A stretch of 64,000 bases of DNA from Cetobacterium somerae (GTDB taxonomy: Bacteria; Fusobacteriota; Fusobacteriia; Fusobacteriales; Fusobacteriaceae): NCBI RefSeq assembly GCF_022430525.1, contig NZ_CP092520.1:372001-436000 (forward strand), read 5' to 3'. Made by a program: the position numbers and the translations under genes. Shown here piece after piece: positions 28,651-49,231 of the stretch. Every line of letters begins with the position of its first letter. Position 1 is the first letter of the stretch. The notes under the pieces were generated by a model. That model was not told the DNA's origin, ran no database searches, and was given only the letters and a program-made list of their open reading frames with translations.

Positions 28651-28828
28651 TCTTTGATTGCGTATTATTTGGATCTATATCCTTACTAATATCATTAGCG
28701 TGCCCTTTAAACTCTTTTATAGCTTTTCCCAAACTTTTTCCAATTTCTGGTAACTTTGATGGTCCAAAAACTACTAACGCTATACATAATATTAATATCA
28801 ATTCAAACGGTCCTAATCTTCCAAACAT
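28628..28828 (-). CDS. tatA: Sec-independent translocase TatA
   Basis: 66 residues: short N-terminal membrane helix (about 8-21), the FGPSKLPEIGKSLGKAIKEFK hinge and amphipathic helix, then a polar tail. No separate tatB is nearby, so this looks like a minimal TatA-TatC system. 15 bases after fdhD. Confidence 0.95.
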   Translation of the reverse strand: MFGRLGPFELILILCIALVVFGPSKLPEIGKSLGKAIKEFKGHANDISKDIDPNNTQSKNEGNSEK

Positions 28829-28843
28829 ATTTTATCTCTCCCC

Positions 28844-29563: not shown

Positions 29564-29574
29564 ATTACTCCTCT

Positions 29575-30099
29575 TTATGGATTTTCAAATTGACCTACTT
29601 CTACCCATTCACATAATCCTTTTGCATGGCCTAATACCATGTATATATCTGAAAATAGGTATCTAGCTCCATTTGAAGCTTCCACACTTTTTATATCTGT
29701 ATATTCTTTAGTTGTTAATATTTTTTCTAGTAAATAGTCAATATCTTTTCTATTAAAAGGATTTAATTTAAAGGTTTCTAAAGAAGTTGGTCTTGGATAT
29801 AACTTAGATTCCATTCTAACCAACTCTACTATTGTTTCTTCAATATTTTTTTCCTTTAAATTATACAATACATCTCTATATGTATTACTAATATAGTCTT
29901 TTGAATAAAAATATACTTCGACTTTTCCTCTAATCATATCAATATCTTTTGTTTTTTCATCTATTTTTAGTTCATCTATTATTTTTTCAATTTTAGAAGC
30001 CTTTAATTTTAAAGGCTTCTCTTCTAATTCTTTTCCACTAATTAATCTCCCCAATTTTGAGGCTTCTCTTATAATTTCAACTAGAATCTCTTTATTCAT
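29575..30099 (-). CDS. Unknown protein encoded after the AOR (ydhW position)
   Basis: 174 residues, soluble, mixed charged with helical N-terminal half; no signal peptide, no metal-binding Cys pattern. The C-terminus holds GARYLFSDIYMVLGHAKGLCEW. I do not recognise the family. It lies between the YdhV-like AOR and fdhD with gaps of about 10-20 bases, the position occupied by ydhW in the E. coli ydhY-V-W order. An assembly or chaperone role for the AOR is a guess from context only. Confidence 0.7.
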   Translation of the reverse strand: MNKEILVEIIREASKLGRLISGKELEEKPLKLKASKIEKIIDELKIDEKTKDIDMIRGKVEVYFYSKDYISNTYRDVLYNLKEKNIEETIVELVRMESKLYPRPTSLETFKLNPFNRKDIDYLLEKILTTKEYTDIKSVEASNGARYLFSDIYMVLGHAKGLCEWVEVGQFENP

Positions 30100-30116
30100 A
30101 TTTTTTCCTTTTAATA

Positions 30117-32225
30117 CTATGCTGGTAATAAATTCAATCTTTCAAGCTCTACTGCAACATCAGCCATACCTAATCTATTTAAAGTTTCTTTTGTAGGAGC
30201 TCCTGTTTTTTCATCCCATCCCATCTCTTTATAGAACATTGTCAGTGCAACTTGCATATCCTCTCTATCCATCTTATCTGTTCCAGGAGTAAATGCTTTA
30301 ATATCTGGATCTTTATCGAATACCCAATCAGTCATTCCATCATGTTCTTCTCTCATATTAATCGTATTCATATTTTTTACTGTTAATGCTCTATGTAAAG
30401 TAAATACTCTTTCTGCAGCTAAATCTAAACTTTCTTCTGTATAATTTTCTCCAGTTACCACAGTCATAAACTTAGATTCTAAAGCTAAATCTCCTCTATA
30501 ATTTCTTGATTTATGTGGAGAAACTGTCATTGGCCACATCCAATTACAAAGAGTTAAAGAATCATGTAAACAATTTTTTACAATAGCCCATTTAGCTAAC
30601 TTAGCTTTATATTCATTCATTGGGCTATAATTTAATGGTGGGTCTATTCCATCAGGTGAACCTACAATTTCTGCTACAACCTCTTTTTGAATCTCTATTG
30701 GTAAACCGCTTCCAACTAAATTTACTAAGGTGTGACTCTGAGCATCTCTGTTGAACATACAGCTTATTAATGACCCTACTTGACCATTTGTTTCATTAGA
30801 ATGATGTTTTGGAAATCCTAATCTTGACCATAATCCATATTTAGGGTTATTCCAATAATCATCTCCAAAGTCCCATCTTTTAGCAACCCAATATGCTCCG
30901 TCTCCGAGATGACTCAATTCTCCCTCCTTATAAGCTATTCTTCTATAAAAATCAATTAAGAATGCCGGATCTTTTTCTTCTAATAAATTCCAGGGAATAG
31001 AGTTATACTCATCTTCTGGTAAGACCTTTTTAAAAATTCCACTTTCATATCCATGTTTTAAATCTGTTCCAATAAGACCATAGTTACACCATACTCCATA
31101 GTCATCAGCTAATGATGCTCCAATAACTGCAGCAAACATTTTTCCGTCACCTTTCTCTTCTATATCTTTATTTCCTTTAAACATCACTCTTTGAGGTGAA
31201 AAGTAACCCATACAAGTATTTGCTACATAAGGTGATAGTCCATAATCTTGTAATTTAGGTACCTTTAATTGGCTCATACATCTAATTGGGCATGATTGAC
31301 ATCCTCCCATTCTTACTGTATATTTTTCTGCTGAAGGACCTAAATCAAATGTAGCTTTCATTGTTCTATAGCCCACTTTATTTACATCGCCTGCTGCTGC
31401 AATTCCAGTTTCTATCGGTCCACCCTCTGCTGCACCCCAAGTTAAACCTTCTCTAGCTGTCCATCTGCTACCTTTATGATGAAACTCAGACCACGGTTGT
31501 GGAGTACTTGGTACAACATGTTGATTATTTGCTCCAATTAAATCTTTCATCATATAATTATTTAACTTTAGTAATTCTCTACCTTTTCCAGCAATATTAA
31601 CAGCATTAGTCCCTTTTACTCCAATAGCCTTTAACATCTTTGATCCTAATACACCGCCATGTCCTCCTGCTGAATGACTTAATCCGTTCATAATTACAGA
31701 AAGATTTACCATATTTTCTCCTGCTTGACCTATTGCTGCTATTGAAGCCTCTTTTCCCATTATTGCTCCTAATTGAGCTGTTGTATCTTTTATCCCTTTA
31801 CCCCATACATTTGTTGCACTTTCTAAAGAAACTTTGTCATTATCTATTTTTAACCAAACTGGTCTATTTGATTTTCCTTCAATAATTATAGCATCATATC
31901 CTGCATATTTTAATTGAGCTGCAAAATTTCCTCCCATATGTGAATCTCCTACAGCATTGTAAGGATTTGATGGAAATAATGATGTTATATTTGTTCTAGA
32001 ACTTGAAGGTGCTCCTGACCCTGTTAATGGTCCTACTGCAAATACTATTTTATTAGCTTCATCAAAAGCTTTTGTTCCTGCTGGTACTTCATCAAATATA
32101 ACTTTATATCCTATTCCCATTCCACCAATAAAATCTTTATACTTAGACGTAGGTTCTTTTGTTATTATTCCTGTTGTTAAATTTACCCTTAAAATATTTC
32201 CTGCCCATCCATATGATTTACTCAT
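30117..32225 (-). CDS. Aldehyde:ferredoxin oxidoreductase-family enzyme, YdhV-like
   Basis: Tungsten or molybdenum bis-pterin oxidoreductase, 702 residues, longer than classical AORs (about 605) and equal to E. coli YdhV (about 700). [4Fe-4S] ligands C309/C312/C316 (GGCQSCPIRC), with a distal Cys in the LTLCNWMW segment. N-terminal YGWAGNILRVNLTTG is typical. No signal peptide of its own. E. coli YdhV was reported to carry a bis-Mo-pterin cofactor; the tupABC genes upstream make tungsten equally likely here. The Tat-signal ferredoxin next door suggests export as a complex. Confidence 0.9.
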   Translation of the reverse strand: MSKSYGWAGNILRVNLTTGIITKEPTSKYKDFIGGMGIGYKVIFDEVPAGTKAFDEANKIVFAVGPLTGSGAPSSSRTNITSLFPSNPYNAVGDSHMGGNFAAQLKYAGYDAIIIEGKSNRPVWLKIDNDKVSLESATNVWGKGIKDTTAQLGAIMGKEASIAAIGQAGENMVNLSVIMNGLSHSAGGHGGVLGSKMLKAIGVKGTNAVNIAGKGRELLKLNNYMMKDLIGANNQHVVPSTPQPWSEFHHKGSRWTAREGLTWGAAEGGPIETGIAAAGDVNKVGYRTMKATFDLGPSAEKYTVRMGGCQSCPIRCMSQLKVPKLQDYGLSPYVANTCMGYFSPQRVMFKGNKDIEEKGDGKMFAAVIGASLADDYGVWCNYGLIGTDLKHGYESGIFKKVLPEDEYNSIPWNLLEEKDPAFLIDFYRRIAYKEGELSHLGDGAYWVAKRWDFGDDYWNNPKYGLWSRLGFPKHHSNETNGQVGSLISCMFNRDAQSHTLVNLVGSGLPIEIQKEVVAEIVGSPDGIDPPLNYSPMNEYKAKLAKWAIVKNCLHDSLTLCNWMWPMTVSPHKSRNYRGDLALESKFMTVVTGENYTEESLDLAAERVFTLHRALTVKNMNTINMREEHDGMTDWVFDKDPDIKAFTPGTDKMDREDMQVALTMFYKEMGWDEKTGAPTKETLNRLGMADVAVELERLNLLPA

Positions 32226-32245
32226 CTTTTATTTATCCCCCTCAA

Positions 32246-32893
32246 TTATCTCTTACTAAAAAAATGTGCTTTGCTAATATCTTCCCACTTAATAACTTTT
32301 AAAGCATCTGTAGGGCATCCTCTAACGCATGACCCACAAGTTGTACATTTTGTCGCATATCCATTTTCTGTATCTATTGTAGGCAAATTCCATGGACATG
32401 CTTCTGTACAAACTCCACATCCCACACATTTATCTTTTAAAACTACTCTTGCTCCTGTTCTTGCATCAGCTGCTATAGCTCCGTTGGGACAAGCATTAGC
32501 ACAAAACGGTTCTCTACACTGCTTACATGTTACTGGAGACATCTTTAAATTCCCCATTTGCCCATCTTCATACTGGTAATTTATTTTAGGGCCTGTTGTT
32601 CCAAAGTTATAATTTTCTCCAACTTTAATTCGAGATAAAAATGGTTGAACTTTTCCATCATTTTGCAATGTACATGTTATTTCACAACGCTGACACCCTG
32701 TACATTTTGATCTATCCACTACTAATAATCCTTCTGGTAAAGCTATTGCCGCCATTGCTTCTTCACCAAAACCAAACATTGACAAGATTGAAGAGGTTAC
32801 TGCAAATCCAGCAACTCCTTTTCCAGTTAATTTTAAAAATTCTCTTCTTGTAGTTTCTTTATCAAAAACCTTATTAATTAAACCTTTAGACAT
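32246..32893 (-). CDS. Tat-exported four-cluster ferredoxin, YdhY/YdhX-like
   Basis: 215 residues. A twin-arginine motif T15-R-R-E-F-L-K21 leads a hydrophobic stretch ending around AMAA (46-49), a classical Tat signal. Four cysteine groups follow, starting with C64/C67/C70/C74 (CTGCQRCEITC), giving four predicted [4Fe-4S] clusters. Electron-transfer partner of the AOR encoded 20 bases downstream. The start overlaps the tupC stop by one base. Confidence 0.92.
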   Translation of the reverse strand: MSKGLINKVFDKETTRREFLKLTGKGVAGFAVTSSILSMFGFGEEAMAAIALPEGLLVVDRSKCTGCQRCEITCTLQNDGKVQPFLSRIKVGENYNFGTTGPKINYQYEDGQMGNLKMSPVTCKQCREPFCANACPNGAIAADARTGARVVLKDKCVGCGVCTEACPWNLPTIDTENGYATKCTTCGSCVRGCPTDALKVIKWEDISKAHFFSKR

Positions 32894-33498
32894 TACGTCC
32901 CCCTTTGTATTATTTTTCCTTCATCTACTTCGTAAATATAATTACTTATTCTTACTGCTTGTTCGTAATCATGTGTTACTATAATTATTAAACACCCCAT
33001 ATCCCTTAATTCACTCAATATTCTTTCTACTACATATGTGCTTTTTTTATCCATACTTGCCGTAGGCTCATCTAAAAGTAATATTTTTTTATTATAAAGA
33101 ATTGTTCTAATAAATTGAATTTTTGCTTTTTCTCCACCAGACAAATTATCTACTGATGATTCTTTCAATTTTTCTATCTGAAACTCTTTTAAAAAAATAG
33201 TTACTTTATCTAATTCTATTTTCAAATTTCTCAACTTAAATGGTTCAGTTATGTTATAAATAACATTTCCTTTAAAAAATAGTGGTTCTTGTGTAGATAA
33301 AATTACATTATCTCTATCATATCTTAAATTTCCTTCATCATAAGATAAAATACCACCTAATATTTTTAAAAGAGTACTTTTTCCAGCACCATTTCTTCCC
33401 AATATTGAATAAATTTTTCCTTTAGAAAAATTTAAATTTGTTATCTCTAGAATTAGTCTATCTTTATAATATTTTTTTAAATTTTTTATCTCTATCAA
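32893..33498 (-). CDS. tupC: Tungstate ABC transporter ATP-binding protein
   Basis: 201 residues, a minimal ABC ATPase: Walker A GRNGAGKST, signature LSGGEK, Walker B ILLLDEPTAS, and switch His in VTHD. Starts directly after tupB. Shorter than most import ATPases, with no regulatory C-terminal domain. Assigned to the Tup system by position. Confidence 0.92.
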   Translation of the reverse strand: MIEIKNLKKYYKDRLILEITNLNFSKGKIYSILGRNGAGKSTLLKILGGILSYDEGNLRYDRDNVILSTQEPLFFKGNVIYNITEPFKLRNLKIELDKVTIFLKEFQIEKLKESSVDNLSGGEKAKIQFIRTILYNKKILLLDEPTASMDKKSTYVVERILSELRDMGCLIIIVTHDYEQAVRISNYIYEVDEGKIIQRGT

Positions 33499-34128
33499 TT
33501 ATTTCACCCATTTTATTAAGAAATTCAATAGAAAAGAAATACTAAACAAAATTAATGCTATCACTAAAGAAGTACTATAGTTTCCCATAGATGTTGATAA
33601 AGCTATATATGTCGTCATTACCCTAGTATAACCTTTAATATTTCCTCCAACTAGCATAACTGATCCTACTTCAGAAATTCCTCTGGCAAAAGCTACTAAA
33701 AATATTCCTAAAAACCTAGTTTTTAACTCTCTAAAAAAAACTCTATTTAATTTATTTGACGGTATATGTAAAATTTTACAAGTTGTTAAAATTCTACTAC
33801 CATCATCTTCTAAAAGCTCTGAACATAATGTTATAACAAGTGGCAATAACAATAAAAATTGTGCTATTATTATTGCTGTTGGTGTAAACAGCAGATTTAA
33901 AGGTCCCAAAATCCCTCTTCTTGAAAGCATTAGAAGTACTACTAATCCAAATATTATTGTTGGAACTCCTGTTAAAGCTCTAAAAAACTCCAATATTTTT
34001 TTAAAAATTTTATCTTTTCTAAAAAATAATCCAAGGCTTATAAAAAATCCAACTATTGAACTTAAAATGCTTGCAACTCCTGTCACAAATAAAGATAGTA
34101 AAACAATCTCTATTATCTCTTTATTCAC
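33499..34128 (-). CDS. tupB: Tungstate ABC transporter permease
   Basis: 209 residues with five to six membrane segments and the permease EAA-like loop around RELKTRFLGIFLVAFARGISEVG. Sits one base after tupA and adjacent to tupC. TupB assignment follows from the TupA-type binding protein. Confidence 0.92.
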   Translation of the reverse strand: MNKEIIEIVLLSLFVTGVASILSSIVGFFISLGLFFRKDKIFKKILEFFRALTGVPTIIFGLVVLLMLSRRGILGPLNLLFTPTAIIIAQFLLLLPLVITLCSELLEDDGSRILTTCKILHIPSNKLNRVFFRELKTRFLGIFLVAFARGISEVGSVMLVGGNIKGYTRVMTTYIALSTSMGNYSTSLVIALILFSISFLLNFLIKWVK

Positions 34129-34129
34129 A

Positions 34130-34915
34130 TTAATTACCTACAAAAAATAATGGTGTACCAAATTCATTTTTTCCATAATTTTTCATTATCTCTTCTGCTT
34201 CTTTTGACTGCATGAACTCTATGAATATTTTAATATCATCTTTTTTTGACTCTTGAACATTTGATAATTCTAAAATTGAATATATGTTTTTTAAAGGTTC
34301 TTTTTCATCTAAAGGTACTTCTTGTAATTTAAAATTATCTTTTACTTTTAAAAATGTTCCACTATCAGATAATGTAAATCCTTGTAGTTCAGAAGTTAAA
34401 TTTAAAGTTTTAGCCATTCCTAAACCAGCTTCTTTATAATTTTTAAAATTCTTATCAATTTTTGCTTCTTTCCACATAGCTAACTCTTTAGAATGTGTCC
34501 CTGATTTATCACCTCTTGATATAAATATTAAATTTTCTTTTGCTATCTTACTTAATAATTTATTTAAGTTTTTAGGATAATTTGTTAAATCTTTCTCATT
34601 ATCAGTCACAACTACAAAATAATTGTGCATCAACGGATGTCTTTTTACTCCATACCCATCCTTTATGAATTTTTCTTCTCTTCCAGGATCATGAGTAAAT
34701 AAAATATCTACATCTCCTCTTTTTCCAAGTTCTAAAGCTTCCCCTGTCCCTTTAGCAATCCATTTTAATTCAATCCCTTTTTCATTTTTTAATGTTTTTG
34801 AAATCTCAGTTAGAAAACCTGTATCATCTAAAGATGTTGTCGTTCCCATTAGAATTTCTCCTGCATAAATGTTTGTACATATTAATAAACTCGTTAAAAA
34901 TACGGACTTTTTCAT
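34130..34915 (-). CDS. tupA: Tungstate-binding periplasmic protein
   Basis: 261 residues. Cleavable signal peptide of about 18 residues (MKKSVFLTSLLICTNIYAG) with no lipobox, so a free periplasmic protein, in line with a diderm cell. Mature N-terminus GTTTSLDDTGFL and GTGEALELGKRGDVDILFTH are TupA signatures for WO4 binding. First gene of a ten-gene operon; GGAGGG precedes ATG 34915 and a promoter lies at 34935-34963. Confidence 0.93.
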   Translation of the reverse strand: MKKSVFLTSLLICTNIYAGEILMGTTTSLDDTGFLTEISKTLKNEKGIELKWIAKGTGEALELGKRGDVDILFTHDPGREEKFIKDGYGVKRHPLMHNYFVVVTDNEKDLTNYPKNLNKLLSKIAKENLIFISRGDKSGTHSKELAMWKEAKIDKNFKNYKEAGLGMAKTLNLTSELQGFTLSDSGTFLKVKDNFKLQEVPLDEKEPLKNIYSILELSNVQESKKDDIKIFIEFMQSKEAEEIMKNYGKNEFGTPLFFVGN

Positions 34916-34934
34916 TTTGAATCCCTCCTCATAA

Positions 34935-34963
34935 AATATGAATAATTATACTATTATACTAGT
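34935..34963 (-). promoter_or_regulatory. Promoter of the tup-AOR-tat-moeA operon
   Basis: Minus strand: -35 TTGTAA (34963-34958), 17-base spacer, perfect -10 TATAAT (34940-34935). The spacer contains a repeated AGTATAAT unit that could bind a regulator. No riboswitch-like structure was recognised in this short leader. Confidence 0.72.
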
Positions 34964-35035
34964 TTTTTTACAACTTTTTTATTCTTTTTGTATTATTTTA
35001 ATTTTTTTTATACTAAAATAGAATAAAATTAAAAT

Positions 35036-35058
35036 AGGATAAATTTAGAATTTATCCT
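35036..35058 (-). terminator. Terminator after mobA
   Basis: 10-bp stem AGGATAAATT / AATTTATCCT with a 3-base loop, followed on the minus strand by ATTTTAATTTT. It ends the formate dehydrogenase-hydrogenase-mobA operon. Confidence 0.75.
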
Positions 35059-35641
35059 ACATTTTTTTTATTATTTCTAAATCTTCAAAAGTATTAATAT
35101 TAAAAAAACCTTTAGAAATCTCTTCTGAATTTTTTAATTTATCAATATTTATCCAATTTACATTTAATTTCTGAAAAATTTTAGCTATTTTAAATTCTTT
35201 TCTTTTAATAGAATCAGTAATCTCACTCAAACTATTTTTTTTATATAGTGCACAAAGAGGTTCTTTATAAAAATTATGAATAGGTATTGATATATCATAA
35301 TTACCTTTTATTTTTCCTAAATACTCTATAAATTCTTTTTTTATAAATGGAGTGTCACAAGATAAAATTAAACATTCATCGTTCAAAGCATTTTTTAATC
35401 CTGTAAAAATTCCACCTAATGGTCCTATATTTTTTATGTCATCTTCTATCACTTTCACATTGTATTTTAAATACTTTTCTGGAGAATTTGATATAATTAT
35501 GATTTCTGAAAAATTTTCAAGTTTTTCTATTATAATTTCAAAAAATGGCTTTCCCTTAAATTCTAAAAAACTTTTATCAACATAATTTAATCTACTTCCT
35601 TTTCCACCGGCTAATAAAATTACACTTTTTTTATATTTCAT
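35057..35641 (-). CDS. mobA: Molybdenum cofactor guanylyltransferase
   Basis: Adds GMP to Mo- or W-molybdopterin to form the dinucleotide cofactor used by formate dehydrogenase. 194 residues; nucleotidyltransferase LLAGGKGSRL at the N-terminus and ILSCDTPF metal site. It overlaps hydA by 4 bases (ATGA), so it is translated with the enzyme operon it serves. Confidence 0.9.
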   Translation of the reverse strand: MKYKKSVILLAGGKGSRLNYVDKSFLEFKGKPFFEIIIEKLENFSEIIIISNSPEKYLKYNVKVIEDDIKNIGPLGGIFTGLKNALNDECLILSCDTPFIKKEFIEYLGKIKGNYDISIPIHNFYKEPLCALYKKNSLSEITDSIKRKEFKIAKIFQKLNVNWINIDKLKNSEEISKGFFNINTFEDLEIIKKM

Positions 35642-37359
35642 ACTTTTATTTTATTCGAATATGTGGTATGCAGAATATGATGGCTTTTATGACCACAAGG
35701 TTCTTTTAAATAATTTTTATAAAGATTAATTACCTCTATATTTTCATGAGACTTTCTAAGCGTTGAATTAGAATCAAAGGAATACATCCCTTTCATTCTA
35801 GCTTTCCTAACTTCTAAATTATCTGGAATTGGTGCTCCACCACCACTTATACAACCTCCATAACATGCCATTACTTCAATAAAATCAAATGAAATCTCTT
35901 TTCTCTCTATGGCATCTAAAATTCTTTTAGCTGATCCAATACCATTTATTACGGCTACTTTAATTTTTCTTTCTCCTAAAATTATTTCTGCAGATTTTAC
36001 ATTTTCAAATCCTCTTAGATCTTTAAATTCTATAATTTCTAATTGACCATCAGTTAAAATATGACTTACCGTTCTTAGTGCTGCTTCCATGACACCACCA
36101 GAAGATCCAAAAATTCTTCCTGCACTTGATCCTAATCCCATAAATGAATCGTAAGTTAAATCATCTGGCAAAGAATTAAAATCTATATTATTCATTTTTA
36201 TTAATTTAGCAAACTCTCTTGTTGTTATAACTAAGTCTACATCTTTAATTCCATTTTCTTGCATTTCTACTCTTTCACTTTCACCCTTTTTAGCAGTACA
36301 AGGCATAATTGAAACAACATAAATATCTTCTTTAGGAATATTCAATTTATTTGAATAATAAGATTTTACTAATGCTCCAAACATTTGCTGAGGAGACTTA
36401 CAACTTGATAAATTTTTTATAAAATTTGGGTATGATTGTTCCACATAATTAACCCATCCTGGGCAACAAGAAGTAAACATTGGCAGCTCTCCTTTACCTT
36501 TTATTAATCTCTCGATTAACTCTGTTCCCTCTTCCATTATTGTTACATCTGCTGAAAAATCTGTACTAAAAACTTTATCAAACCCTAATTTTTTCAAAGC
36601 TCCAACCATTTTCGAGGTTGCATCCACCCCAGGATTAATAAAAAATTCTTCTCCTATTGTATGTTTTATCGCTGGTGCCATCTGAACAACTATATGCTTT
36701 TCTGAATTTTTTAAAAGTCTATTTAATTCTGTTACACTATTTTTTTCTGTTAAAGCTCCTACTGGACAAATTTTTACACATTGTCCACAAGAAACACACT
36801 CAGTATCTCCTAATAGCTTTCTATCTCTTATTATAATTTCTTTAGTCCCATTAGTTTCTATAACTTCATAAATTCCTAATCCTTGAACTTCTCTGCAAAT
36901 AGCGACACATTTTTCACATAAAATGCATTTATTCATATTTCTAGTTATCCCTGATGAACTATTATCTATTTCATATTTCTTTAAATCTAATAAATTTCTA
37001 TTTACTATATTATATTCAAAAGATATATTTTGTAATTCACAATCTCCTTTTGATTTCTCGCAAGTTAAACAATCATTTGGATGATTTTTCATAATCTCTT
37101 TTAATATTTCTTCTCTTTTTTTAGTTATTTCGGCAGTCTTCGTCTTTATAACCATATTTTTTTCTGGATATGTTTCACAAGATTTTAAAAGTTCTCCATT
37201 GCATTCAACAATACAAATTCCACAAACTTTTTGTGATCCTAAATCTTCATGATGGCAAAGAGTGGGTATATTTATACCCATCTCTTTACATTTTTCTAAA
37301 AGTGTTTGTGTAGACTTTATATTTGTTAAAACTCCATCAATTTCTATTTGAAAATTCAT
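35638..37359 (-). CDS. [FeFe] hydrogenase, formate-dehydrogenase-linked type
   Basis: 573 residues: NuoG-like [2Fe-2S] and His/Cys cluster region (1-125, Cys at 35/46/49/61), two [4Fe-4S] clusters (about 145-200), then the H-cluster domain. H-cluster motifs: L1 TSCCPGW (296-302), L2 MPCTAKK (352-358), L3 MACYGGCISGGG (497-508), where the usual ACPGGC has Tyr for Pro. Catalyses H2 oxidation/evolution. Encoded 10 bases after the formate dehydrogenase, so probably one complex. Confidence 0.93.
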   Translation of the reverse strand: MNFQIEIDGVLTNIKSTQTLLEKCKEMGINIPTLCHHEDLGSQKVCGICIVECNGELLKSCETYPEKNMVIKTKTAEITKKREEILKEIMKNHPNDCLTCEKSKGDCELQNISFEYNIVNRNLLDLKKYEIDNSSSGITRNMNKCILCEKCVAICREVQGLGIYEVIETNGTKEIIIRDRKLLGDTECVSCGQCVKICPVGALTEKNSVTELNRLLKNSEKHIVVQMAPAIKHTIGEEFFINPGVDATSKMVGALKKLGFDKVFSTDFSADVTIMEEGTELIERLIKGKGELPMFTSCCPGWVNYVEQSYPNFIKNLSSCKSPQQMFGALVKSYYSNKLNIPKEDIYVVSIMPCTAKKGESERVEMQENGIKDVDLVITTREFAKLIKMNNIDFNSLPDDLTYDSFMGLGSSAGRIFGSSGGVMEAALRTVSHILTDGQLEIIEFKDLRGFENVKSAEIILGERKIKVAVINGIGSAKRILDAIERKEISFDFIEVMACYGGCISGGGAPIPDNLEVRKARMKGMYSFDSNSTLRKSHENIEVINLYKNYLKEPCGHKSHHILHTTYSNKIKV

Positions 37360-37369
37360 AACTCCTCCA

Positions 37370-40030
37370 CTAAATTAACTTCTCTATTCTTACTGCTGTT
37401 ACTTTTAATTCTGGAATTCCACATTTTTCATCTATACGATCTGCTCCAGTTAATACGTTACAAGCTCCTTCTGCAAAATGAAAAGGCATAAAGAATAGTT
37501 CTTCTAATATTCCCTCATTAGGAGATACTCTCGTTAAAATTTCTCCTCTTCTAGATATAACCTTTATTATTTCTCCGCTTGTTATATTTAGCTTTCTCAT
37601 TGTTTGTGGATGTATCTCTATATATGAATCTGGAGATTTTTCGTTTAATCCATCTACTTTTCCAGTCATTGTCCTTGTATGGTAGTGATATAAATTTCTA
37701 CCATTTGTTAATAAATACGGGTACTGACTACATTGATTCTCTCCTAAAAGTTCTTGTTCTGAAGGAATAAACAATCCCTTTCCTCTCATTGGAGCATTCA
37801 TGTGCAATATCGATGTTCCTTTTTTATTTTCTCCTATAGGCCAAGGTACTCCTATTTTGTCAATTATTTTATAATTTAGTCCTTTATATTGAGGAGTTAC
37901 TTTTGCTATCTCATTTGTTATCTCTTCTGCAGATTTATAAACTTTTTCATATCCTAAAACATTCATTATATTATTTATAATTTTCCAATCAGGTTCTACA
38001 CCTTCCCTATCTACAACTTTTCTAACTCTTTGTATCCTTCTTTCAGTATTAGTAAATGTTCCATCTTTTTCAGCAAAAGATAGTGCTGGTAATACAACAT
38101 CTGCTAATTGAGCTGTTTCAGTCATAAATATATCTTGAACAATTAAAAAATCCAAAGACTCTAAAGCATGTTTTATATGATTTATATCCGGATCTGAAAC
38201 CATTGGATTTTCTCCCATTATATATAAACATTTTAATTGATGATGCGAAGCTCTATGCATCATCTCTGGAATAGTATATCCAATTTTATCATTTAATTTA
38301 ACTCCCCATTCTTTTTCAAATTTAGTTTTTACTTCTGGGTTATAAACTTTTTGATATCCTGGATATGAATCTGGAAGGCCTCCCATGTCACAAGAACCTT
38401 GGACATTATTTTGACCTCTTAAAGGATTGATTCCACCAAATTTAATCCCTATATTTCCACATAATAAAGCTAAATTAGATAGGCTCATTACTCCATTAGT
38501 CCCTGCTTTATGTTGAGTTATTCCCATAGCATAAAAAATTGATGCTACATCACTTGAATAAATTCTCGCAGCTTTCTCTATTAACTCTTTAGGTACTCCA
38601 CATATATTACTTACATATTCTGGTGTATATTTTTCTACTAATTTTACTAATTCATCGAAATTTTCTGTATTTTTCTTTACATATTCCTTATTATACAAAT
38701 TCTCTTTTATTATTATATGAATCATTCCATTAACAAGAGCAATATTTGTTCCTAAATTTAATTGCAGAAATACATCTGCGTCATCAGCTAAATCGATCAT
38801 TCTTGGATCGGCAACAATCACTTTTGCGCCATTTAATTTAGCTGTTTTTATTTTAGATCCTATAACAGGGTGATTCTCTCTAGGATTTGACCCTATTATA
38901 AAGATAACTTTTGAGTCTACAACTTCTTCTATACTATTAGTCATAGCTCCACTTCCCAACGTAGTTGCTAACCCGGCAACCGTTGAACTGTGTCAAAGAC
39001 GAGCGCAATGGTCAACATTATTTGTTCCAATTACTGCTCTAAAAAGCTTTTGAAAAATATAATTATCCTCATTTGTGCATCTTGCTGAAGTTAGTCCTCC
39101 AAAAGAATCTGAACCATATTTCTCTTTAATTTCCATTATATTTTTTTGAATAAGATTGTAAGCTTCTTCCCACGATGATGCTTCTAGTTTACCATTTTTT
39201 CTTATATATGGTGTATTTATCCTATCTGGATGATTTACAAACTTATAACCAAATTTACCTTTTACACATAGTAGTCCATCATTAGGAGCTACATTTGCTG
39301 GTTTTGCTTCAACTATCTTATTATCTTTAACTAAAAAATCAATTTGACATCCTACACCACAATATGAACAAGTAGTTCTAACACTTTTAGTTTCCCATGA
39401 TCTATATTGTTCTTTTTCCTTTGGTAATAAAGCTCCTACAGGACATACACTCACACAATTTCCACAAGACATACATTTAGTATTATTAACTTTCTCTTCT
39501 TTTATAGGACCTGCATATTTCCTTCCATTTTCTTCCTTAATTTCTAATATATTACTTCCTTGTAAATTTTTACAAATTTCCACACATTTTCCACATGCTA
39601 TGCATTTATTAGGATTTATTACATAAAATGGATTGGAATTATCTATTAATAAACTTTCCTTAAAATCATTCTTATTTTGATGAACTTCATATTCATAACA
39701 ATAATCTTGTAATTTACATTCCCCTGATTTTTTGCATCCTAAACAATCTAAAGCATGTTCTTTAATTATATTCTCCAATATCTCTTTTCGTTTTTTAAGC
39801 ACTAATTCACTATGAGTTTTTATTGTAGAATTATCTTTTAGCATAGTTTTACAAGCTTTCTCTAACTTGCCATCTACTTCTACAACACATATTCCACATT
39901 CTTGTTCATTTTTTTTTATTCTTTCATCATGACATAATGTTGGAATTGTTATACCCAAATCACTTAAAAAGTCTAAAAGAGTTTTGTTTTTTATAAAATT
40001 ATACTCTTTTTTATTGACCTTTATACTCAA
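37370..40030 (-). CDS. fdhA: Selenocysteine-containing formate dehydrogenase catalytic subunit
   Basis: Oxidises formate (or reduces CO2) at a Mo/W bis-pterin site. One 886-residue protein read through an in-frame TGA at 38995-38993, which encodes Sec346 in the classic VDHCARL-Sec-HSSTVAGL context. A SECIS-like hairpin lies at 38985-38957. N-terminus: NuoG-like [2Fe-2S]/[4Fe-4S] region (1-210); catalytic domain with C221/C224/C228 cluster; C-terminal dinucleotide-binding domain. Start TTG 40030 follows GGAGG. Standard gene callers would split it at the TGA. Confidence 0.95.
38957..38985 (-). promoter_or_regulatory. SECIS-like hairpin for selenocysteine insertion
   Basis: Minus strand, starting 8 bases after the TGA: lower helix CAACG / CGTTG and upper helix GTTGC / GCAAC around loop CGGGTTA, with TA bulged on the 3' side. 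Position, coding location and a G/T-containing apical loop match bacterial fdhF SECIS elements. No selA/B/C is in the window. Confidence 0.85.
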
Positions 40031-42539: not shown

Positions 42540-43502
42540 ATGTTTAAATATTTTGATCATAAAGTTATAAAAACAGCTCTAGCTTCTTTTTTATCTTATT
42601 ATCTTGCTGATTATTTTGGCATAAAATATGGCCTTACTGCGAGTATTATCGCTATTATTTCCATTCAAGCAACTAAAAGTGATAGTATAAAAATTACAAT
42701 CGAGCGGTTTTTTGCAGTTATCTTAGGAATGTCTCTTTTTATATTATTATCATCATTTTTAGGATACCATTATATCACCTTAGGAATTTTTATTCTTCTT
42801 TTTATGCCATTATGCATCAAATTTAGAATTGTTCAAGGTTTTTTAGTTACTACTGTATTAGCCACACATATTCTAAGTGAAAAATCAATCTCTTTAGATT
42901 TTTTACTTAATGAATTTTATGTTTTAATTTTAGGACTATCTGTTGGAAATATTTTAAATCTTTATATGCCAACTAATTCTAAAACAATCGATTTAATTAA
43001 AATGAAAGTCGATTTAATTTTAAAGCAAATTCTTTCTGATATTTCTGAAAGTTTAAAATGTAGTTGTGTATCTGTAAATGAAGATAAAAATTTTAAATCT
43101 TTAAAAGCTACTATAGAAGAAGGACGTAAATTTTCTTTATTAGACTATGATAATTCCTTATTTGATAAATGTAATGAAAATTTAAACTTTTTCTCTATGA
43201 GAAGAAGACAATATAGAATTTTAACTAGAATGAGAACATGCTTTAAAAGATTATACATTACTCATGAATATAGTCTAATTATTGCTGATTTCATTAGTAA
43301 AGTTTCAGAAAATGTTGAAGTTGATAAAAAAACTACTCCATTAATTAAAGAGCATAAAGAATTAAAAGAATTATTTTCAAACTTTCCTCTTCCTAAAACC
43401 AGAGCAGAATTTGAAAATAGAGCCACTTTATTTCAACTTTTACAAGAAATGGAAGAATTTCTTAATGCTAAAATTGAATTTAAAAAAGATTATGATAATT
43501 AA
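42540..43502 (+). CDS. FUSC/aromatic-acid-exporter-like membrane protein
   Basis: 320 residues: six hydrophobic segments in the first 150 residues (TALASFLSYYLADYFGIKYGLTASIIAIISIQ), then a charged cytoplasmic helical region of about 170 residues. This is the DUF939-type YqjA-like layout. Transport substrate unknown. It follows glsA by 11 bases and precedes moaA by about 28, likely one transcript. Confidence 0.75.
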   Translation: MFKYFDHKVIKTALASFLSYYLADYFGIKYGLTASIIAIISIQATKSDSIKITIERFFAVILGMSLFILLSSFLGYHYITLGIFILLFMPLCIKFRIVQGFLVTTVLATHILSEKSISLDFLLNEFYVLILGLSVGNILNLYMPTNSKTIDLIKMKVDLILKQILSDISESLKCSCVSVNEDKNFKSLKATIEEGRKFSLLDYDNSLFDKCNENLNFFSMRRRQYRILTRMRTCFKRLYITHEYSLIIADFISKVSENVEVDKKTTPLIKEHKELKELFSNFPLPKTRAEFENRATLFQLLQEMEEFLNAKIEFKKDYDN

Positions 43503-43530
43503 TCTTTAAACCTATTATAAAGGAGTGCCC

Positions 43531-44511
43531 ATGTTAGATAAAAATAAAAGACAAATAAATTACTTAAGATTGTCTATAACAGATCATTGTAACTTAAGAT
43601 GTCAGTATTGTCTTCCTGAAAAAGATACAAACTTTTATAATAATTGTGATCTATTAAGTAGTAAGGAGATAGAAAAAATTGTTAGAGCTTTTTCTTTAAT
43701 TGGTATAAAAAAAATTAGAATAACAGGTGGCGAACCTTTAGTTAGAAAAGATTTTAATGAAATTTTGGAAAAAATAAATCATATTAAAGGAATTGAAAAA
43801 ATCGCTATCACTACAAATGGATTTCAACTTTTGGAAAATTTAGATTTATTTAAAAAAAATGGATTAAATAGAATTAATATAAGTTTAGATAGTTTAAATG
43901 CTAAAAAATATAATGAAATTACTCGTGGCGGTGATTTTGATAAAATTTTTAAAACTATTAAAGAAGCAACTTTAAAAAATTTTGAAAAAATACGTTTAAA
44001 TGTTGTTATCATGGAAGGTATCAATGATAATGAAATTTTAGACTTTGTCAATTTAACTAAATATTTAGATATTGGTGTACGTTTTATTGAAATAATGCCA
44101 ATTGGAGAAGGTAAAAAATTTACTTCTGTTAAGAATTCAGACATTTTAAATCTTATAAAAAAACATTATTTATTAGAAAAAAATTCGAATCTCTCTACTG
44201 ACGGACCTGCTTCTTATTATAAAGTTTCTGGATTTATAGGAGAGGTTGGTTTCATTAGTCCTCTTTCAAATAGATTCTGTGATAGTTGTAATCGAGTTAG
44301 AGTAACTTCTAACGGATTTTTAAAACTATGCTTACATTATAATAAAGGAATTGATTTAATGCCATATTTAAAAGATGAGACTTCTGTAGAAACTTTAGCG
44401 ATGATTATTGAGAAAGCTATCTACGATAAAAAACCAAAAGAACATCACATGAATAATAGTGAGAATATCAACGATATAGAATCAAAGGGTATGAACAAAA
44501 TAGGAGGATAA
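43531..44511 (+). CDS. moaA: GTP 3',8-cyclase MoaA
   Basis: First step of molybdenum cofactor synthesis (radical-SAM cyclisation of GTP). 326 residues. SAM cluster C20-x3-C24-x2-C27; C-terminal substrate cluster FCDSCNRVRVTSNGFLKLC; C-terminal Gly-Gly tail that activates MoaA. Start ATG 43531 with AGGAG upstream; the GTG six bases earlier is less likely. moaC, moaE and mogA are not in this window. Confidence 0.95.
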   Translation: MLDKNKRQINYLRLSITDHCNLRCQYCLPEKDTNFYNNCDLLSSKEIEKIVRAFSLIGIKKIRITGGEPLVRKDFNEILEKINHIKGIEKIAITTNGFQLLENLDLFKKNGLNRINISLDSLNAKKYNEITRGGDFDKIFKTIKEATLKNFEKIRLNVVIMEGINDNEILDFVNLTKYLDIGVRFIEIMPIGEGKKFTSVKNSDILNLIKKHYLLEKNSNLSTDGPASYYKVSGFIGEVGFISPLSNRFCDSCNRVRVTSNGFLKLCLHYNKGIDLMPYLKDETSVETLAMIIEKAIYDKKPKEHHMNNSENINDIESKGMNKIGG

Positions 44512-44512
44512 C

Positions 44513-45553
44513 ATGGGAAAAGTTATAGCAATTTGTATAAGTGAAAATAAGGGGACTGAAAAAGTTGTTGTTGAAAGTGGAGTTTTGATTGAAAACTTTG
44601 GATTAGAAAAAGATGCTCATGGAGGAAATTGGCATAGACAAATTAGTTTATTAGAACTTGAAAAGATTGATGATTTCAATAATAAGGGGGGAAATGTTGA
44701 TTTTGGAGCTTTTGGAGAAAATCTAATAATTCAAGGTATAGACTTAAAAAATCTTGCCGTTGGTAGCATACTACAAATTGGTACATCTCTTCTTGAAATA
44801 ACTCAAAAAGGAAAACAATGTCATCATCACTGTAAAATATACCACAGAGTTGGAGATTGTATAATGCCTCGTGAAGGTGTTTTTGCAAAAGTATTAAAAG
44901 GAGGAATTATTTTTCCAAATAATGAAATTAAAATAATCAAATCTCCTATAACATTAGAAGCTTGCGTTGGTTCATATTCTGAAGCTATTACTGCCATAAG
45001 TAAAGGAGCTAATAGAGTTGAGCTTTGCGAAAATCTATTTGAAGGTGGAACAACTCCATCTTATGGAACTATTAAAAAAATTAGAGAACTTGCTATTCCT
45101 GCTTTTGTAATGATTAGACCTAGAGGTGGAGATTTCTGCTATTCTCAAGCTGAAATTGAAATTATGAAAGAGGATATTAAGGTTTGTAAAGAGCTTGGTG
45201 TACTTGGAGTTGTTTTTGGCGTTTTAACAAAAGATAATAAAATTGATTATCCTCTTTTAAAAGAGCTTGTTGAACTTTCAAAGCCAATGAGCATAACTTT
45301 CCATAAAGCTATTGACGAAATCGAAAATCCAGAAAATGAAATATTGAAACTAGCAGAAATTGGAATAGATCGAATTTTAACCTCTGGTAAAAAAGCTACT
45401 GCCTTTGAAGGAGCTGAACTTTTAAATAAATTTATTAAAATTGCTCAAGATAAAATAAAAATTATCGTATGTGGTGGAGTAACATCTGATAATTTTGAAG
45501 AAATTAATAAATTAATTCCTAGTACAGAATATCACGGTAAAAAAATAGTTTAG
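44513..45553 (+). CDS. MOSC domain fused to CutC-family domain
   Basis: 346 residues in two parts. 1-140 is a MOSC domain with the conserved Cys C103 (GKQCHHHC) and CIMPREGVFAKV, a sulfur/Moco-associated fold. 146-346 is a complete CutC-like TIM barrel (LEACVGSYSEAITAISKGANRVELCE, EGGTTPSYG, VMIRPRGGDF, ending STEYHGKKIV). CutC was named for copper homeostasis but its function is unsettled. The single uninterrupted frame starts two bases after the moaA stop, tying it to Moco synthesis. Confidence 0.88.
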   Translation: MGKVIAICISENKGTEKVVVESGVLIENFGLEKDAHGGNWHRQISLLELEKIDDFNNKGGNVDFGAFGENLIIQGIDLKNLAVGSILQIGTSLLEITQKGKQCHHHCKIYHRVGDCIMPREGVFAKVLKGGIIFPNNEIKIIKSPITLEACVGSYSEAITAISKGANRVELCENLFEGGTTPSYGTIKKIRELAIPAFVMIRPRGGDFCYSQAEIEIMKEDIKVCKELGVLGVVFGVLTKDNKIDYPLLKELVELSKPMSITFHKAIDEIENPENEILKLAEIGIDRILTSGKKATAFEGAELLNKFIKIAQDKIKIIVCGGVTSDNFEEINKLIPSTEYHGKKIV

Positions 45554-45559
45554 AATATA

Positions 45560-45591
45560 AAAATGACGGAATTTGTACTTTCCGTCATTTT
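45560..45591 (+). terminator. Terminator after MOSC-CutC gene
   Basis: 12-bp stem AAAATGACGGAA / TTCCGTCATTTT, 8-base loop, then TTTATTATATTTTTC. Confidence 0.88.
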
Positions 45592-45689
45592 TTATTATAT
45601 TTTTCTTGATTTTTATTCACTTTTATTCTAAACTATTAAAGTTGTATATTAGTATTATTACATACATGAATTATGGGAGGGTTATATTT

Positions 45690-47387
45690 ATGAAATTTTT
45701 TAACAAAAAGTATATAAGTCTTTTTACTTCTTTACTTTTAATGACAACTTTAGCTCAAGGAAAAGAATTTATTTCTTCTGCCAAAGGATATAATGGTGAT
45801 ATTAAAGTAAAAGTTGATATTGTAAATAATGAGATTAAAAATATCAGCATTTTGGAAGAAAAAGAAAGTGATTTTACAAAAGATGGTATGAATTCTATCA
45901 TCACTGATATTATTGAAACTCAATCTGTTAAAGTAGATAATGTTGCAGGTGCTACTTCTACTAGTGTTGGATTAAAAAGAGCTGTAGATAGAGCTATTAA
46001 AGAATCTAAAGCAAAATTAACTCCAAAAGAAAAAAAGGTTATAGTTTATAACGATGTGACAACAGATGTTGTTATTATTGGTGGAGGTGGAGCAGGTCTT
46101 TCTGCTGCTATTGCTGCTAAAGATAAGGGCTCAAATGTTATATTAGTTGAGAAAGCAGCTATTCTTGGAGGAAATACTAATTATGCCACGGGTGGACTTA
46201 ATGCTGCTGAAACTTCTATCCAAAAAAATAAAGGTATTAAAGATTCTGTTGAAATTTTTATAGATGATACTATGAAAGGTGGAAAAAATACAAATAATAA
46301 AACTTTAGTTGAAAAAATGGCTAATTCTTCTGCTGAAATTGTAGACTGGCTAATAGAAAAAGGCGCTGATTTAACTGATCTTGGAAGAATGGGTGGACAA
46401 AGTGTAGATAGAACACATAGACCTACTGGGGGAGCTCCTGTTGGACCAAATATGATTGCAGCTCTTTCTAAAACTGCAAAAGAATCAGGAGTTGATATTA
46501 AATTATCAACTTTTGCTGAATCTATCATTTATGATGGTGAAGCCGTTAAAGGAATTGTTGTTAAAGCTCCAAATGGACAAAAATATAATATAAATTCTAA
46601 AGCAGTTGTTATTGCAACTGGTGGTTTTGGAGCTAACTCAGATTTAATTGTTGAAAATGTTGCTTCTTTAAAAGGATTTGGAACTACTAATCACAAAGGT
46701 GCTACTGGTGATGGAATAATTATGACTAAGCCTCTTAACGTTGATTTAGTTGATATGGAACAAATTCAAACACACCCAACAGTTATTCCTACTAATAGTG
46801 TTATGATTACTGAAGCTGTTAGAGGTAATGGAGCTATTCTTGTTAATAGAGATGGTAAAAGATTTATTAATGAGTTAGATACTAGAGATGTTGTTTCTAA
46901 AGCAGAACTTAATCAAAAAGGTGGAAGTGCATACCTTATGTTTGATGAAAATGTTAAAAAGAGTTTAAAAGCTATAGATAGTTATGATAAAAAAGGATAT
47001 TTGACTAAAGGGAATACAATTGAAGAACTCGCTAAAAATTTAAATATCCCTTCTAACGAGTTAGAGAAAACTTTCTCAAAGTATAACGAAAGTGTTAAAG
47101 CTGGTGTTGATTCTGAATTTAATAGACAAAGTTTACCAACTTTATTATCACAAGGTCCTTTTTATAGTGTAGAAGTTGCTCCTGCTGTTCATCACACTAT
47201 GGGGGGAATCAAAATAAATGAAAATGCTGAGGTTTTATCTAATGGAAAGCCTATAAAAGGTCTTTATGCTGCTGGTGAAGTTACTGGTGGAATACACGGT
47301 TCTAATAGATTAGGTGGAAATGCCGTTGTTGATATAACTGTTTTTGGTAAAATCGCTGGAGAAAATGCAAGCTATTTTTCTAAATAA
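45690..47387 (+). CDS. Secreted FMN/FAD fumarate-reductase-family flavoprotein
   Basis: 565 residues: signal peptide (about 1-24), FMN-binding domain (about 28-105) with flavinylation motif around D83-G87-A88-T89-S90-T91-S92, then an FAD domain with GGGGAGLSAA (131-140). Substrate-site motifs TEAVRGNGAILVNRDGKRF and VHHTMGG match soluble fumarate/urocanate reductases. No haem motif. It likely reduces an external enoate using electrons through covalent FMN. ATG 45690 follows GGGAGG; the longer upstream frame is rejected. Confidence 0.88.
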   Translation: MKFFNKKYISLFTSLLLMTTLAQGKEFISSAKGYNGDIKVKVDIVNNEIKNISILEEKESDFTKDGMNSIITDIIETQSVKVDNVAGATSTSVGLKRAVDRAIKESKAKLTPKEKKVIVYNDVTTDVVIIGGGGAGLSAAIAAKDKGSNVILVEKAAILGGNTNYATGGLNAAETSIQKNKGIKDSVEIFIDDTMKGGKNTNNKTLVEKMANSSAEIVDWLIEKGADLTDLGRMGGQSVDRTHRPTGGAPVGPNMIAALSKTAKESGVDIKLSTFAESIIYDGEAVKGIVVKAPNGQKYNINSKAVVIATGGFGANSDLIVENVASLKGFGTTNHKGATGDGIIMTKPLNVDLVDMEQIQTHPTVIPTNSVMITEAVRGNGAILVNRDGKRFINELDTRDVVSKAELNQKGGSAYLMFDENVKKSLKAIDSYDKKGYLTKGNTIEELAKNLNIPSNELEKTFSKYNESVKAGVDSEFNRQSLPTLLSQGPFYSVEVAPAVHHTMGGIKINENAEVLSNGKPIKGLYAAGEVTGGIHGSNRLGGNAVVDITVFGKIAGENASYFSK

Positions 47388-47620: not shown

Positions 47621-49231
47621 ATGTCTACAAAATCTGCAACAAAAAAAATGAGCTTTTTTGAGAGATTCTTAAACTTTGTTGAAGTTACAGGAAATAAGTT
47701 ACCTCACCCAGTTGCCATGTTCTTTGGTTTCTTTGTGATAACTATTATATTTTCTATGATACTTTCTTACACTGGTGTTTCTGTAAACTATAAAGAAATC
47801 TCAAGAACTACCGGACAAGTTATTGAAAAAACAACTTATGTTCAAAATCTTTTAACTAGAAGCGGTATTAGAGGAATTTTCGGTTCAACAGTTAAAAACT
47901 TTACAGGGCATGCGGCATTAGGGTCAATTGTTGTTGCTATGCTTGGAGTTGGTTTAGCTGAGGGAACTGGATTACTAAATTCTATAATTAAAAAAATTGT
48001 TATTTCAACTCCTAAACAACTAGTTTCAGCTATTGTTGTTTTTGCTGGAGTTATGTCAAATATTGCATCAGATGCTGGGTACGTTGTTTTAATTCCCCTT
48101 GGAGCAGTAATTTTCTTATCTTTTGGAAGACATCCACTTGCTGGTATTGCAGCTGCTTTCGCTGGAGTTTCTGGTGGATTCTCTGCTAACCTTTTAATCG
48201 GTACTACTGATCCATTACTTGGTGGAATTACAACATCTGCAGCACAAATTGTTTTACCTGGATATTCTGTTACTCCAACTGCAAACTTCTTCTTTATGTT
48301 TGCTTCTACTTTCTTTATAACAGCTGTTGGAGCTTGGATAACAGATAAAGTTGTTGAACCTAGATTAGGAGACTATAATGGTCCTAAAGTTGATATTAAC
48401 TTAAACGATCAAATTAGTCCTGAAGAGAAAAAAGGATTAAGAGCTGCTGGATTAGCTACAATCGGATTTATTATTTTAGTTTTACTTATGGTTATTCCTG
48501 AAAATGCTATTTTTAGATTAACTCCTGAAGAAATTACAAAGTTTATAGCTGAAAATAATAGAGAACCTGGAACTATGGAAATTTTAAAACCTTTCTTTAG
48601 TGATTCTATTGTTTACATTCTTATGTTGGCATTCTTTATTCCTGGACTTGCTTATGGTGTTGCGGCAAAAACTGTAAAATCACACAAAGATGTTATCAAG
48701 TCAATGACTAAAGCAATGGCTTCTTGTGGACAAGTTTTAGTTATTATCTTTGTTTCTGCTCAATTCGTATATGTTTTCTCTAAATCAAATATAGGAATTG
48801 TTATTGCTGTTAAATTAGCTGATGTTTTAAAAGATCTTGGAATATCTGGAATTTGGGCAGCTGTAGGATTAATATTCTTAACTGCATTTGTTAACTTATT
48901 TATTGGTGGAGCTTCTTCTAAGTGGTTAATGCTTTCTCCTGTTTTCATACCTATGTTCGTTGAATTGGGATTAACTCCTGAGTATACTCAATTAGCATAT
49001 AGAATTGGAGATTCGACTACTAATATAATTTCTCCTCTAATGTCGTATTTCCCTATCATAGTTGGATTTGCATCTAAATATGAGGAAAAAGAAGGATCTA
49101 TGGGAATTGGAACTATCATTGCAATGATGCTTCCATATTCATTAGTTTTCTTAATTGGATGGTCAATTATGTTTATTGCATGGACTTACTTAGGATTACC
49201 TATTGGACCTGGAGTTAGCATGTTTATGTAA
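47621..49231 (+). CDS. AbgT-family transporter
   Basis: Inner-membrane carrier, 536 residues, about 11-13 hydrophobic segments. AbgT hallmarks: N-terminal VEVTGNKLPHPVAMF, SIVVAMLGVGLAEGTGLL, ASDAGYVVLIPL, and RIGDSTTNIISPLMSYFPIIVGF. Characterised members import p-aminobenzoyl-glutamate or export sulfonamides. An amidohydrolase partner is not adjacent, though an M20 enzyme lies 10 kb away. Confidence 0.9.
   Translation: MSTKSATKKMSFFERFLNFVEVTGNKLPHPVAMFFGFFVITIIFSMILSYTGVSVNYKEISRTTGQVIEKTTYVQNLLTRSGIRGIFGSTVKNFTGHAALGSIVVAMLGVGLAEGTGLLNSIIKKIVISTPKQLVSAIVVFAGVMSNIASDAGYVVLIPLGAVIFLSFGRHPLAGIAAAFAGVSGGFSANLLIGTTDPLLGGITTSAAQIVLPGYSVTPTANFFFMFASTFFITAVGAWITDKVVEPRLGDYNGPKVDINLNDQISPEEKKGLRAAGLATIGFIILVLLMVIPENAIFRLTPEEITKFIAENNREPGTMEILKPFFSDSIVYILMLAFFIPGLAYGVAAKTVKSHKDVIKSMTKAMASCGQVLVIIFVSAQFVYVFSKSNIGIVIAVKLADVLKDLGISGIWAAVGLIFLTAFVNLFIGGASSKWLMLSPVFIPMFVELGLTPEYTQLAYRIGDSTTNIISPLMSYFPIIVGFASKYEEKEGSMGIGTIIAMMLPYSLVFLIGWSIMFIAWTYLGLPIGPGVSMFM

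Follow-up and report, generated by a model that had tools for sequence, protein, structure and literature searches.

MOSC domain proteins such as YiiM, YcbX, and mARC act on N-hydroxylated compounds, and in YiiM and mARC the molybdenum cofactor (Moco) is ligated by a conserved cysteine. CutC, a widespread protein without an agreed biochemical role, occurs in organisms as different as minimal cells and humans. A passage of PMC1779556 places MOSC proteins at late steps of molybdenum/tungsten (Mo/W) cofactor formation, and according to a part of PMC4993169 the minimal cell Syn3.0 retains a CutC minus one cysteine. A literature search found no paper joining a MOSC domain and CutC. Cetobacterium is a fish-gut bacterium. 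The window analyzed here, which is the whole 64,000-nucleotide stretch of a Cetobacterium somerae genome, encodes both domains in one protein (MOSC–CutC) next to moaA, and this protein is a new combination of known families rather than a new kind of system. The features of the locus are as follows:

24832–40030, reverse strand: divergent Mo/W island, from profile matches; same order annotated in C. somerae plasmid p1
37370–40030, reverse strand: formate dehydrogenase with a NuoG-like N-terminus, two open reading frames split at an in-frame TGA
42540–43502, forward strand: ArAE-family aromatic acid exporter, at the same position in 13 of 13 mapped Cetobacterium loci and further off in genome G002
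43525–44511, forward strand: moaA (GTP 3',8-cyclase), TIGR02666, 351.9 bits against a cut-off of 284.05
44513–45553, forward strand: MOSC–CutC fusion gene, an open frame with both Pfam families above cut-off
44513–44941, forward strand: MOSC half, codons 1–143, with Pfam and NCBIfam matches and Cys103 in the motif GKQCHHHCKIYHRVGDCIMPREG
44942–44950, forward strand: linker of three codons (144–146) between the MOSC and CutC halves
44951–45544, forward strand: complete CutC TIM barrel, codons 147–344, covering PF03932 positions 2–200 of 202
45573–47387, forward strand: FMN/FAD flavocytochrome c-type reductase downstream of the fusion, true start probably further in
47621–49231, forward strand: AbgT-family transporter (PF03806), near MOSC also in genomes G002 and G003

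The fusion gene is a single open frame on the forward strand that runs from ATG to TAG through 346 codons (346 aa) without an internal stop. In Pfam, the CutC family (PF03932) matched residues 147–344 over its full length with 216.8 bits (curated cut-off 23.3), and the MOSC family (PF03473) matched residues 36–111 with 44.5 bits (curated cut-off 22.7). The NCBIfam match stretches the MOSC half to residues 2–143 through the MOSC part of the MoaC/MOSC model; at 170.5 bits, this match to the MOSC part only lies below the whole-protein cut-off of 457, and the protein is not a member of the MoaC/MOSC equivalog NF011069. The earlier note had described one continuous frame with a MOSC domain and a complete CutC, which the absence of stops and both Pfam matches bear out, and had set it two bases behind moaA, where the spacer is in fact one base (position 44512). 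The source genome contains one CutC and one MOSC in total. No in-frame ATG, GTG, or TTG occurs from codon 131 to codon 162 in the eight of nine distinct fusion genes examined, so that a full CutC could hardly be made alone, barring a rare start such as the annotated ATA. MOSC–CutC is probably an obligate two-domain protein. Five cysteines (Cys103, 107, 116, 151, and 172) are common to all nine fused proteins.

A survey of MOSC–CutC fusions and their neighbors, which the earlier note had proposed as a check, found that the fusion is genuine and shared by most Cetobacterium genomes rather than confined to a single strain. The 98 Fusobacteriota genomes surveyed include 12 from the genus, and 9 of these have an uninterrupted fusion frame of 347–350 codons. 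G008 is the tenth; it reads as fused until a run of N interrupts its scaffold. All 10 genus genomes with moaA thereby carry the fusion, G008 being readable only to the assembly gap, and the gene order is moaA–MOSC–CutC in every one; G008 was rejected as a broken fusion because its two frames flank the run of N. The remaining two, G012 and G014, are without MOSC, CutC, and moaA over cut-off. In the complete C. somerae plasmid p1 (NZ_CP143320.1), all 346 codons are open and 49 of 1041 bases differ from the window. In the public gene table, p1 has an entry for the CutC half (L134 20436–21041, starting at the ATA of codon 146) but none for the MOSC half, an example of annotation loss. A scan of genome contigs with exact short peptides, which finds close relatives only, returned Cetobacterium as the relatives with both domains. 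No match was fused among 391 Clostridia genomes, of which 98 had a match of any kind, among 387 genomes from the phylum of G105, of which 61 did, or among plasmid records besides p1 (69 records matched, of which one covered at least 80%).

Two further candidates were rejected as fusions. In L156 (G273), which might have been a decayed fusion, the 1–252 match overruns an ordinary MOSC gene and no CutC motif follows beyond it, and the 366-aa CutC frame of G312 owes its length to open sequence ahead of an ordinary CutC start. A different CutC fusion occurs in G082 (L107 6284–7702), where a 472-aa frame has an alpha/beta-hydrolase-like C-terminal half (Pfam LIDHydrolase, below cut-off), and G083, which bears the same genus code, has a 485-aa CutC frame (C2:5554–6117).

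The surroundings of the fusion are those of Mo/W metabolism. For moaA, the ATG at 43531 is a likelier start than 43525 and yields the 326 aa of the C. somerae p1 annotation. Genes for a glutaminase and an AraC regulator also lie upstream of moaA. The divergent island encodes a MoeA-PBP fusion, MoeA, TatC, FdhD, a 174-aa open reading frame, an aldehyde:ferredoxin oxidoreductase (AFOR), and a ferredoxin-like protein, together with an ABC transporter with a PBP_like_2 binding protein, which is probably of the tungstate type, MobA, [FeFe]-hydrogenase, and formate dehydrogenase. The TGA within the latter is probably read as selenocysteine, since the C. somerae p1 annotation has a single 2661-base fdhF there. 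The 174-aa frame (29575–30099, reverse strand), between FdhD and AFOR, has no Pfam match and is a “hypothetical protein” in C. somerae p1. Downstream of the fusion, C. somerae p1 also encodes a second AFOR with MoaD/ThiS and ThiF proteins (L134 28570–31285). A search of 26–50 kb of the window against Rfam gave no match. The moaA–fusion island lies on a 664-kb plasmid record (NZ_CP143320.1, 664,419 bases) in C. somerae, and the contig G000:C2 has 704,842 bases; the Moco genes may thus ride on a second replicon in this genus.

The MOSC half follows moaA closely. Across the 98 Fusobacteriota, 45 genomes have both MOSC and moaA, 2 MOSC only, 2 moaA only, and 49 neither (p = 7e-23, with two fragmented moaA genes taken as present). 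Outside the genus, MOSC lies within 150 bp of moaA in 15 of the 35 genomes that have both, and within 8 kb in 29. Cys103, invariant in all nine fusions, aligns with the YiiM cysteine in 5yhh, 1o65, and 5yhi, which we take to be the Moco ligand. Judged by its phylogenetic profile, the MOSC half is a Moco gene, and we read it as a predicted Moco/tungsten-cofactor accessory domain in its normal place, namely the usual short MOSC of the fusobacterial moa operon. Around the cysteine motif, the fused MOSCs carry the replacements I99K, E102Q, and S105H: at 44804–44836 (codons 98–108) fused proteins have K99, Q102, and H105 (GKQCHHHC), whereas 17 unfused ones have I99, E102, and S or T105 (GKECH). It is possible that this change reflects a new metal site or plain drift. 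With a looser threshold, eight replacements of the fused lineage fall in MOSC and one in CutC, whereas a matched comparison in the same 15 genomes (CutC rows of 190 aa or less dropped, leaving 13) gave 4 of 53 positions for MOSC and 1 of 71 for CutC, which is not significant (p = 0.16).

The CutC half is otherwise ordinary. The 9 fused CutCs retain all 44 positions that are near-invariant among 34 unfused ones, and the fusion keeps the CutC family residues E149, R168, E170, R202, Y210, H264, D268, and H341 (fusion numbering); this comparison, like the CutC tree used for the AU test, left out 21 divergent CutC rows of 64. The mean dN/dS over 28 pairs from 8 genomes (the nine distinct fusion genes minus that of G005) is 0.10 for MOSC, 0.15 for CutC, and 0.14 for moaA. 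Both halves are under purifying selection, and the fusion is kept by selection. An AlphaFold model of the CutC half matched human CutC (3iwp) with Z 30.6 and rmsd 1.7 over 201 residues, and the nearest non-CutC folds were hexulose-6-phosphate synthase (Z 18.0), DERA-type aldolases (about 16–17, best 17.2), and MfnB (17.1). The nearness of these phosphosugar-enzyme folds in the model would fit a sugar-type reaction, as a shared fold that by itself shows no function. The MOSC half was poorly modelled (pLDDT < 50 at residues 9–43), and no domain orientation is therefore claimed. As the ordinary residues are kept and this is the only CutC of the cell, the CutC half most likely still does what CutC does elsewhere.

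Outside the genus, the distribution of CutC does not follow that of moaA. The association among all 98 Fusobacteriota (36 genomes with CutC and moaA, 27 with CutC only, 11 with moaA only, and 24 with neither, p = 0.02) is not seen in the 86 genomes outside the genus (26, 27, 11, and 22, respectively, p = 0.18), where CutC does not track moaA. No full moaA is present in 27 of the 63 CutC-bearing Fusobacteriota, and among 16 other Fusobacteriaceae genomes without a full moaA, CutC is kept in 7 and absent in 9. Moco biosynthesis as the general role of CutC is not supported. The earlier note had proposed a role in Mo/W cofactor handling; the Moco/tungsten setting (moaA and the island) and the MOSC half, which tracks moaA, agree with this, but the proposal does not carry over to CutC in general.

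What CutC does follow is glycosylasparaginase (PF01112). CutC is present in 26 of 27 Fusobacteriota with PF01112 and 37 of 71 without (p = 1.5e-5; p = 1.9e-4 without the genus of the window), and in the 391 Clostridia in 6 of 7 genomes with PF01112 over cut-off and 28 of 384 without (p = 1.8e-6); the genomes are related, so these Fisher tests overstate independence. In these counts, G027, with a weak second piece, was taken as one genome, G137 fell below cut-off and was not counted, and G276, a weak match in the Clostridia search, was not counted as CutC. Of 79 standalone-CutC loci, 11 (from 10 genomes) have a glycosylasparaginase gene on the same strand at most 5 kb away. Because the genomes are related and three of the loci (L135, L166, and L167) were fetched for a glycosylasparaginase already known nearby, the adjacency numbers show direction rather than rate; the 79 loci also include three known duplicate pairs (L005/L109, L007/L117, and L012/L172). 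Loci in which CutC has this neighbor, in most cases together with a PTS, come from Fusobacteriota, Clostridia, and a Hymenobacter and include L006, L012, L013, L014, L087, L118, L119, L135, L166, and L167. CutC forms one run with PTS IIA/IIB and an Asparaginase_2 protein, which we interpret as glycosylasparaginase, in three Clostridia loci (L012, L013, and L014) and four Fusobacterium-type loci (L006, L087, L118, and L119), with a PTS IIC gene in all except L013; the PTS is of the lactose/cellobiose type. A Hymenobacter plasmid record has a four-base overlap between the two genes, which carry the annotations N(4)-(beta-N-acetylglucosaminyl)-L-asparaginase and CutC. E. coli and Caulobacter have matches to both families.

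By comparison, a Moco gene lies within 5 kb in 4 of the 79 loci when searched with a reference set without MoaC, MoaE, MoaD, and Mog: MOSC in G002, the only standalone-CutC locus with MOSC in that range, MoeA in L012 and L172 (one genome), and an opposite-strand MoeA-PBP in L168. The fused copy itself does not adjoin a glycosylasparaginase gene, as that of the source genome is on another contig (G000:C1:300419) and the fusion is on C2, and four of the ten fusion genomes (G004, G006, G008, and G010) have no glycosylasparaginase match. Of the other plasmid-record loci, which were not preselected, two are annotated and neither has glycosylasparaginase adjoining CutC; three records carry no annotation. 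The CutC neighbors in g5, a ClC channel and RecJ, fit no pathway. A literature search found no paper on CutC together with glycosylasparaginase; a part of PMC5700972, which is suggestive only, names CutC and an asparaginase among predicted VirK partners near N-glycan genes. Glycosylasparagine catabolism, with which CutC is linked by both co-occurrence and adjacency, is a testable lead for its general role. The evidence suggests that the usual work of CutC lies away from the cofactor and probably concerns sugars. The record of L006 (CALXQJ010000002.1) is titled “uncultured Spirochaetes bacterium”, and the CutC of its CutC–PTS–glycosylasparaginase run nests in the Fusobacterium-type CutCs; it is probably a mislabelled bin or a transfer.

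An unfused counterpart is present in a neighboring genus. In G002, MOSC and CutC are separate genes, in which the stop codon TAA of MOSC is followed with zero gap by the in-frame ATG of cutC (ATATAAATG), and the locus has ArAE, the FAD protein, and AbgT in common with that of Cetobacterium. The moaA gene of G002 is on another contig. G003, a second genome of the G002 genus, has only MOSC at the corresponding position, and most other Fusobacteriaceae have MOSC by moaA and CutC elsewhere. The fused CutCs form one clade (support 100/98 and 99/95 in two trees), and G002 groups with G016 in the CutC trees; forcing G002 with the fused clade was not rejected (AU p = 0.235), and the G002 pair and the Cetobacterium fusion may or may not share one origin. 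The MOSC tree, from which L071 and L015 were dropped (missed by the motif search), was weakly resolved.

The reading that we favor, with moderate confidence, is that in MOSC–CutC an accessory domain for the Moco/tungsten cofactor is tethered to an otherwise ordinary CutC enzyme, the only one in the cell. We infer the roles of the two halves as follows. The MOSC half probably holds the Moco/tungsten cofactor, or its sulfur, at Cys103, and its cargo may be destined for enzymes with genes in the vicinity, namely formate dehydrogenase and aldehyde:ferredoxin oxidoreductases. The CutC half most likely runs the usual CutC reaction independently of Moco; gene context and fold point to a small-molecule, sugar-type reaction that may be linked to the breakdown of glycosylasparagine (GlcNAc-Asn). 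As the probable origin of the fusion, cutC came to stand immediately after MOSC, whose stop codon was then lost; this would have placed CutC under the expression of the moa operon, and the tether would serve co-expression rather than a shared reaction.

Ranking second is a functional coupling of the halves, which we consider possible but rather unlikely, whereby MOSC would pass the cofactor on to the CutC barrel, which would handle an intermediate or by-product of the Moco/tungsten cofactor. The constant order moaA–MOSC–CutC and the Mo/W island next door are consistent with such a coupling, as is the lack of CutC in the moaA-less G012 and G014, which would be expected if CutC served Moco (n = 2). 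The abutting pair in G002 adds a second genus in which, with moaA elsewhere, the MOSC–CutC pairing does not depend on moaA, and the fused-lineage changes near the MOSC cysteine motif could mean a changed function. However, CutC does not track moaA outside the genus, MOSC lies within 5 kb in just one of the 79 standalone-CutC loci, the Clostridia and the phylum of G105 yielded no fusion, and the near-invariant CutC residues are unchanged in the fused copies.

It is unlikely that the halves were joined by neutral hitch-hiking, in which loss of a stop codon between adjacent genes left each half working and the joining was not adaptive. The in-frame, zero-gap pair in G002, the single clade of fused CutCs, and the ordinary dN/dS in both halves would all agree with this origin, but the genes are fused in 10 of 10 genus genomes with moaA and re-splitting was never seen among them; nor would this origin account for the position of cutC after MOSC in both genera, provided that the two arose separately (AU p = 0.235, undecided).

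A composite enzyme, in which the cofactor at Cys103 of MOSC would face the mouth of the CutC barrel, the barrel would act on a Moco/tungsten-cofactor intermediate or damage product, and the CHHHC motif and Cys320 would build a new metal site, strikes us as improbable; if true, it would be the first biochemical assignment of CutC.

A role in copper handling is very doubtful. Here, the CutC half would hold Cu(I) and protect or exchange the copper able to occupy the molybdopterin dithiolene. Cys151 and Cys172 are kept in all nine fusions, at positions that presumably equal Cys31 and Cys52 of human CUTC, the human Cu(I) ligands, and the fused proteins have added Cys320 in CutC and CHHHC in MOSC. 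For the copper–dithiolene chemistry raised in the earlier note, the presence of cysteines is the sole point in favor. On the other hand, only 51 of 64 CutC rows show both cysteines (two of the 13 rows without both are truncated), and L012–L014, which have glycosylasparaginase alongside, have neither. Guo et al. (in 2014) reportedly found that the small RNA MicL explains the copper phenotype of E. coli cutC. The promoter of MicL lies in the E. coli cutC region, as stated in a part of PMC8216713, so that cutC-deletion phenotypes are confounded in E. coli. No copper gene was seen among the neighbors looked up. Finally, a sequencing or assembly artefact or single-strain oddity is rejected with near certainty, as the frame is open in nine genus genomes and, over its 346 codons, in the complete C. 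somerae plasmid, and nothing beyond the gap in the G008 scaffold speaks for it.

The fusion offers a clean system for work on a cell's single CutC, either joined to a Moco accessory domain or separated from it. We argue that reading the role of CutC from this one fusion, in the Rosetta-stone manner, would be misleading, given the differing co-occurrence of its halves. Across two phyla, CutC is partnered by glycosylasparaginase, which also adjoins it in the Hymenobacter record and is often accompanied by a lactose/cellobiose-type PTS; this yields the testable hypothesis that CutC handles a product of GlcNAc-Asn cleavage.

Among known systems, the MOSC half agrees with the short MOSC of fusobacterial moa operons in length, motif, and place behind moaA, with 63–65% identity to the G002 and G003 copies, but the fusion ends in a CutC barrel and has lineage-specific replacements near Cys103. 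The MoaC/MOSC fusion (NF011069, PRK14499) is likewise a MOSC fusion in Moco biosynthesis, and of the MOSC models the MOSC part of this one scored best; its partner, however, is MoaC, a pathway enzyme placed before MOSC, whereas here CutC stands after it. YiiM, YcbX, and mARC share the conserved cysteine that, in YiiM, aligns with Cys103, although they are longer proteins and their sequence similarity to the MOSC half is weak (E 2e-4). The CutC half resembles the CutC family, including human CUTC (3iwp) and Shigella CutC (1twd/1x7i), in fold, in about 40–42% identity over 200 residues, and in the full conserved residue set. The matched solved members are CutC alone, whereas the CutC of the fusion is the C-terminal half of a MOSC protein within a moa operon.
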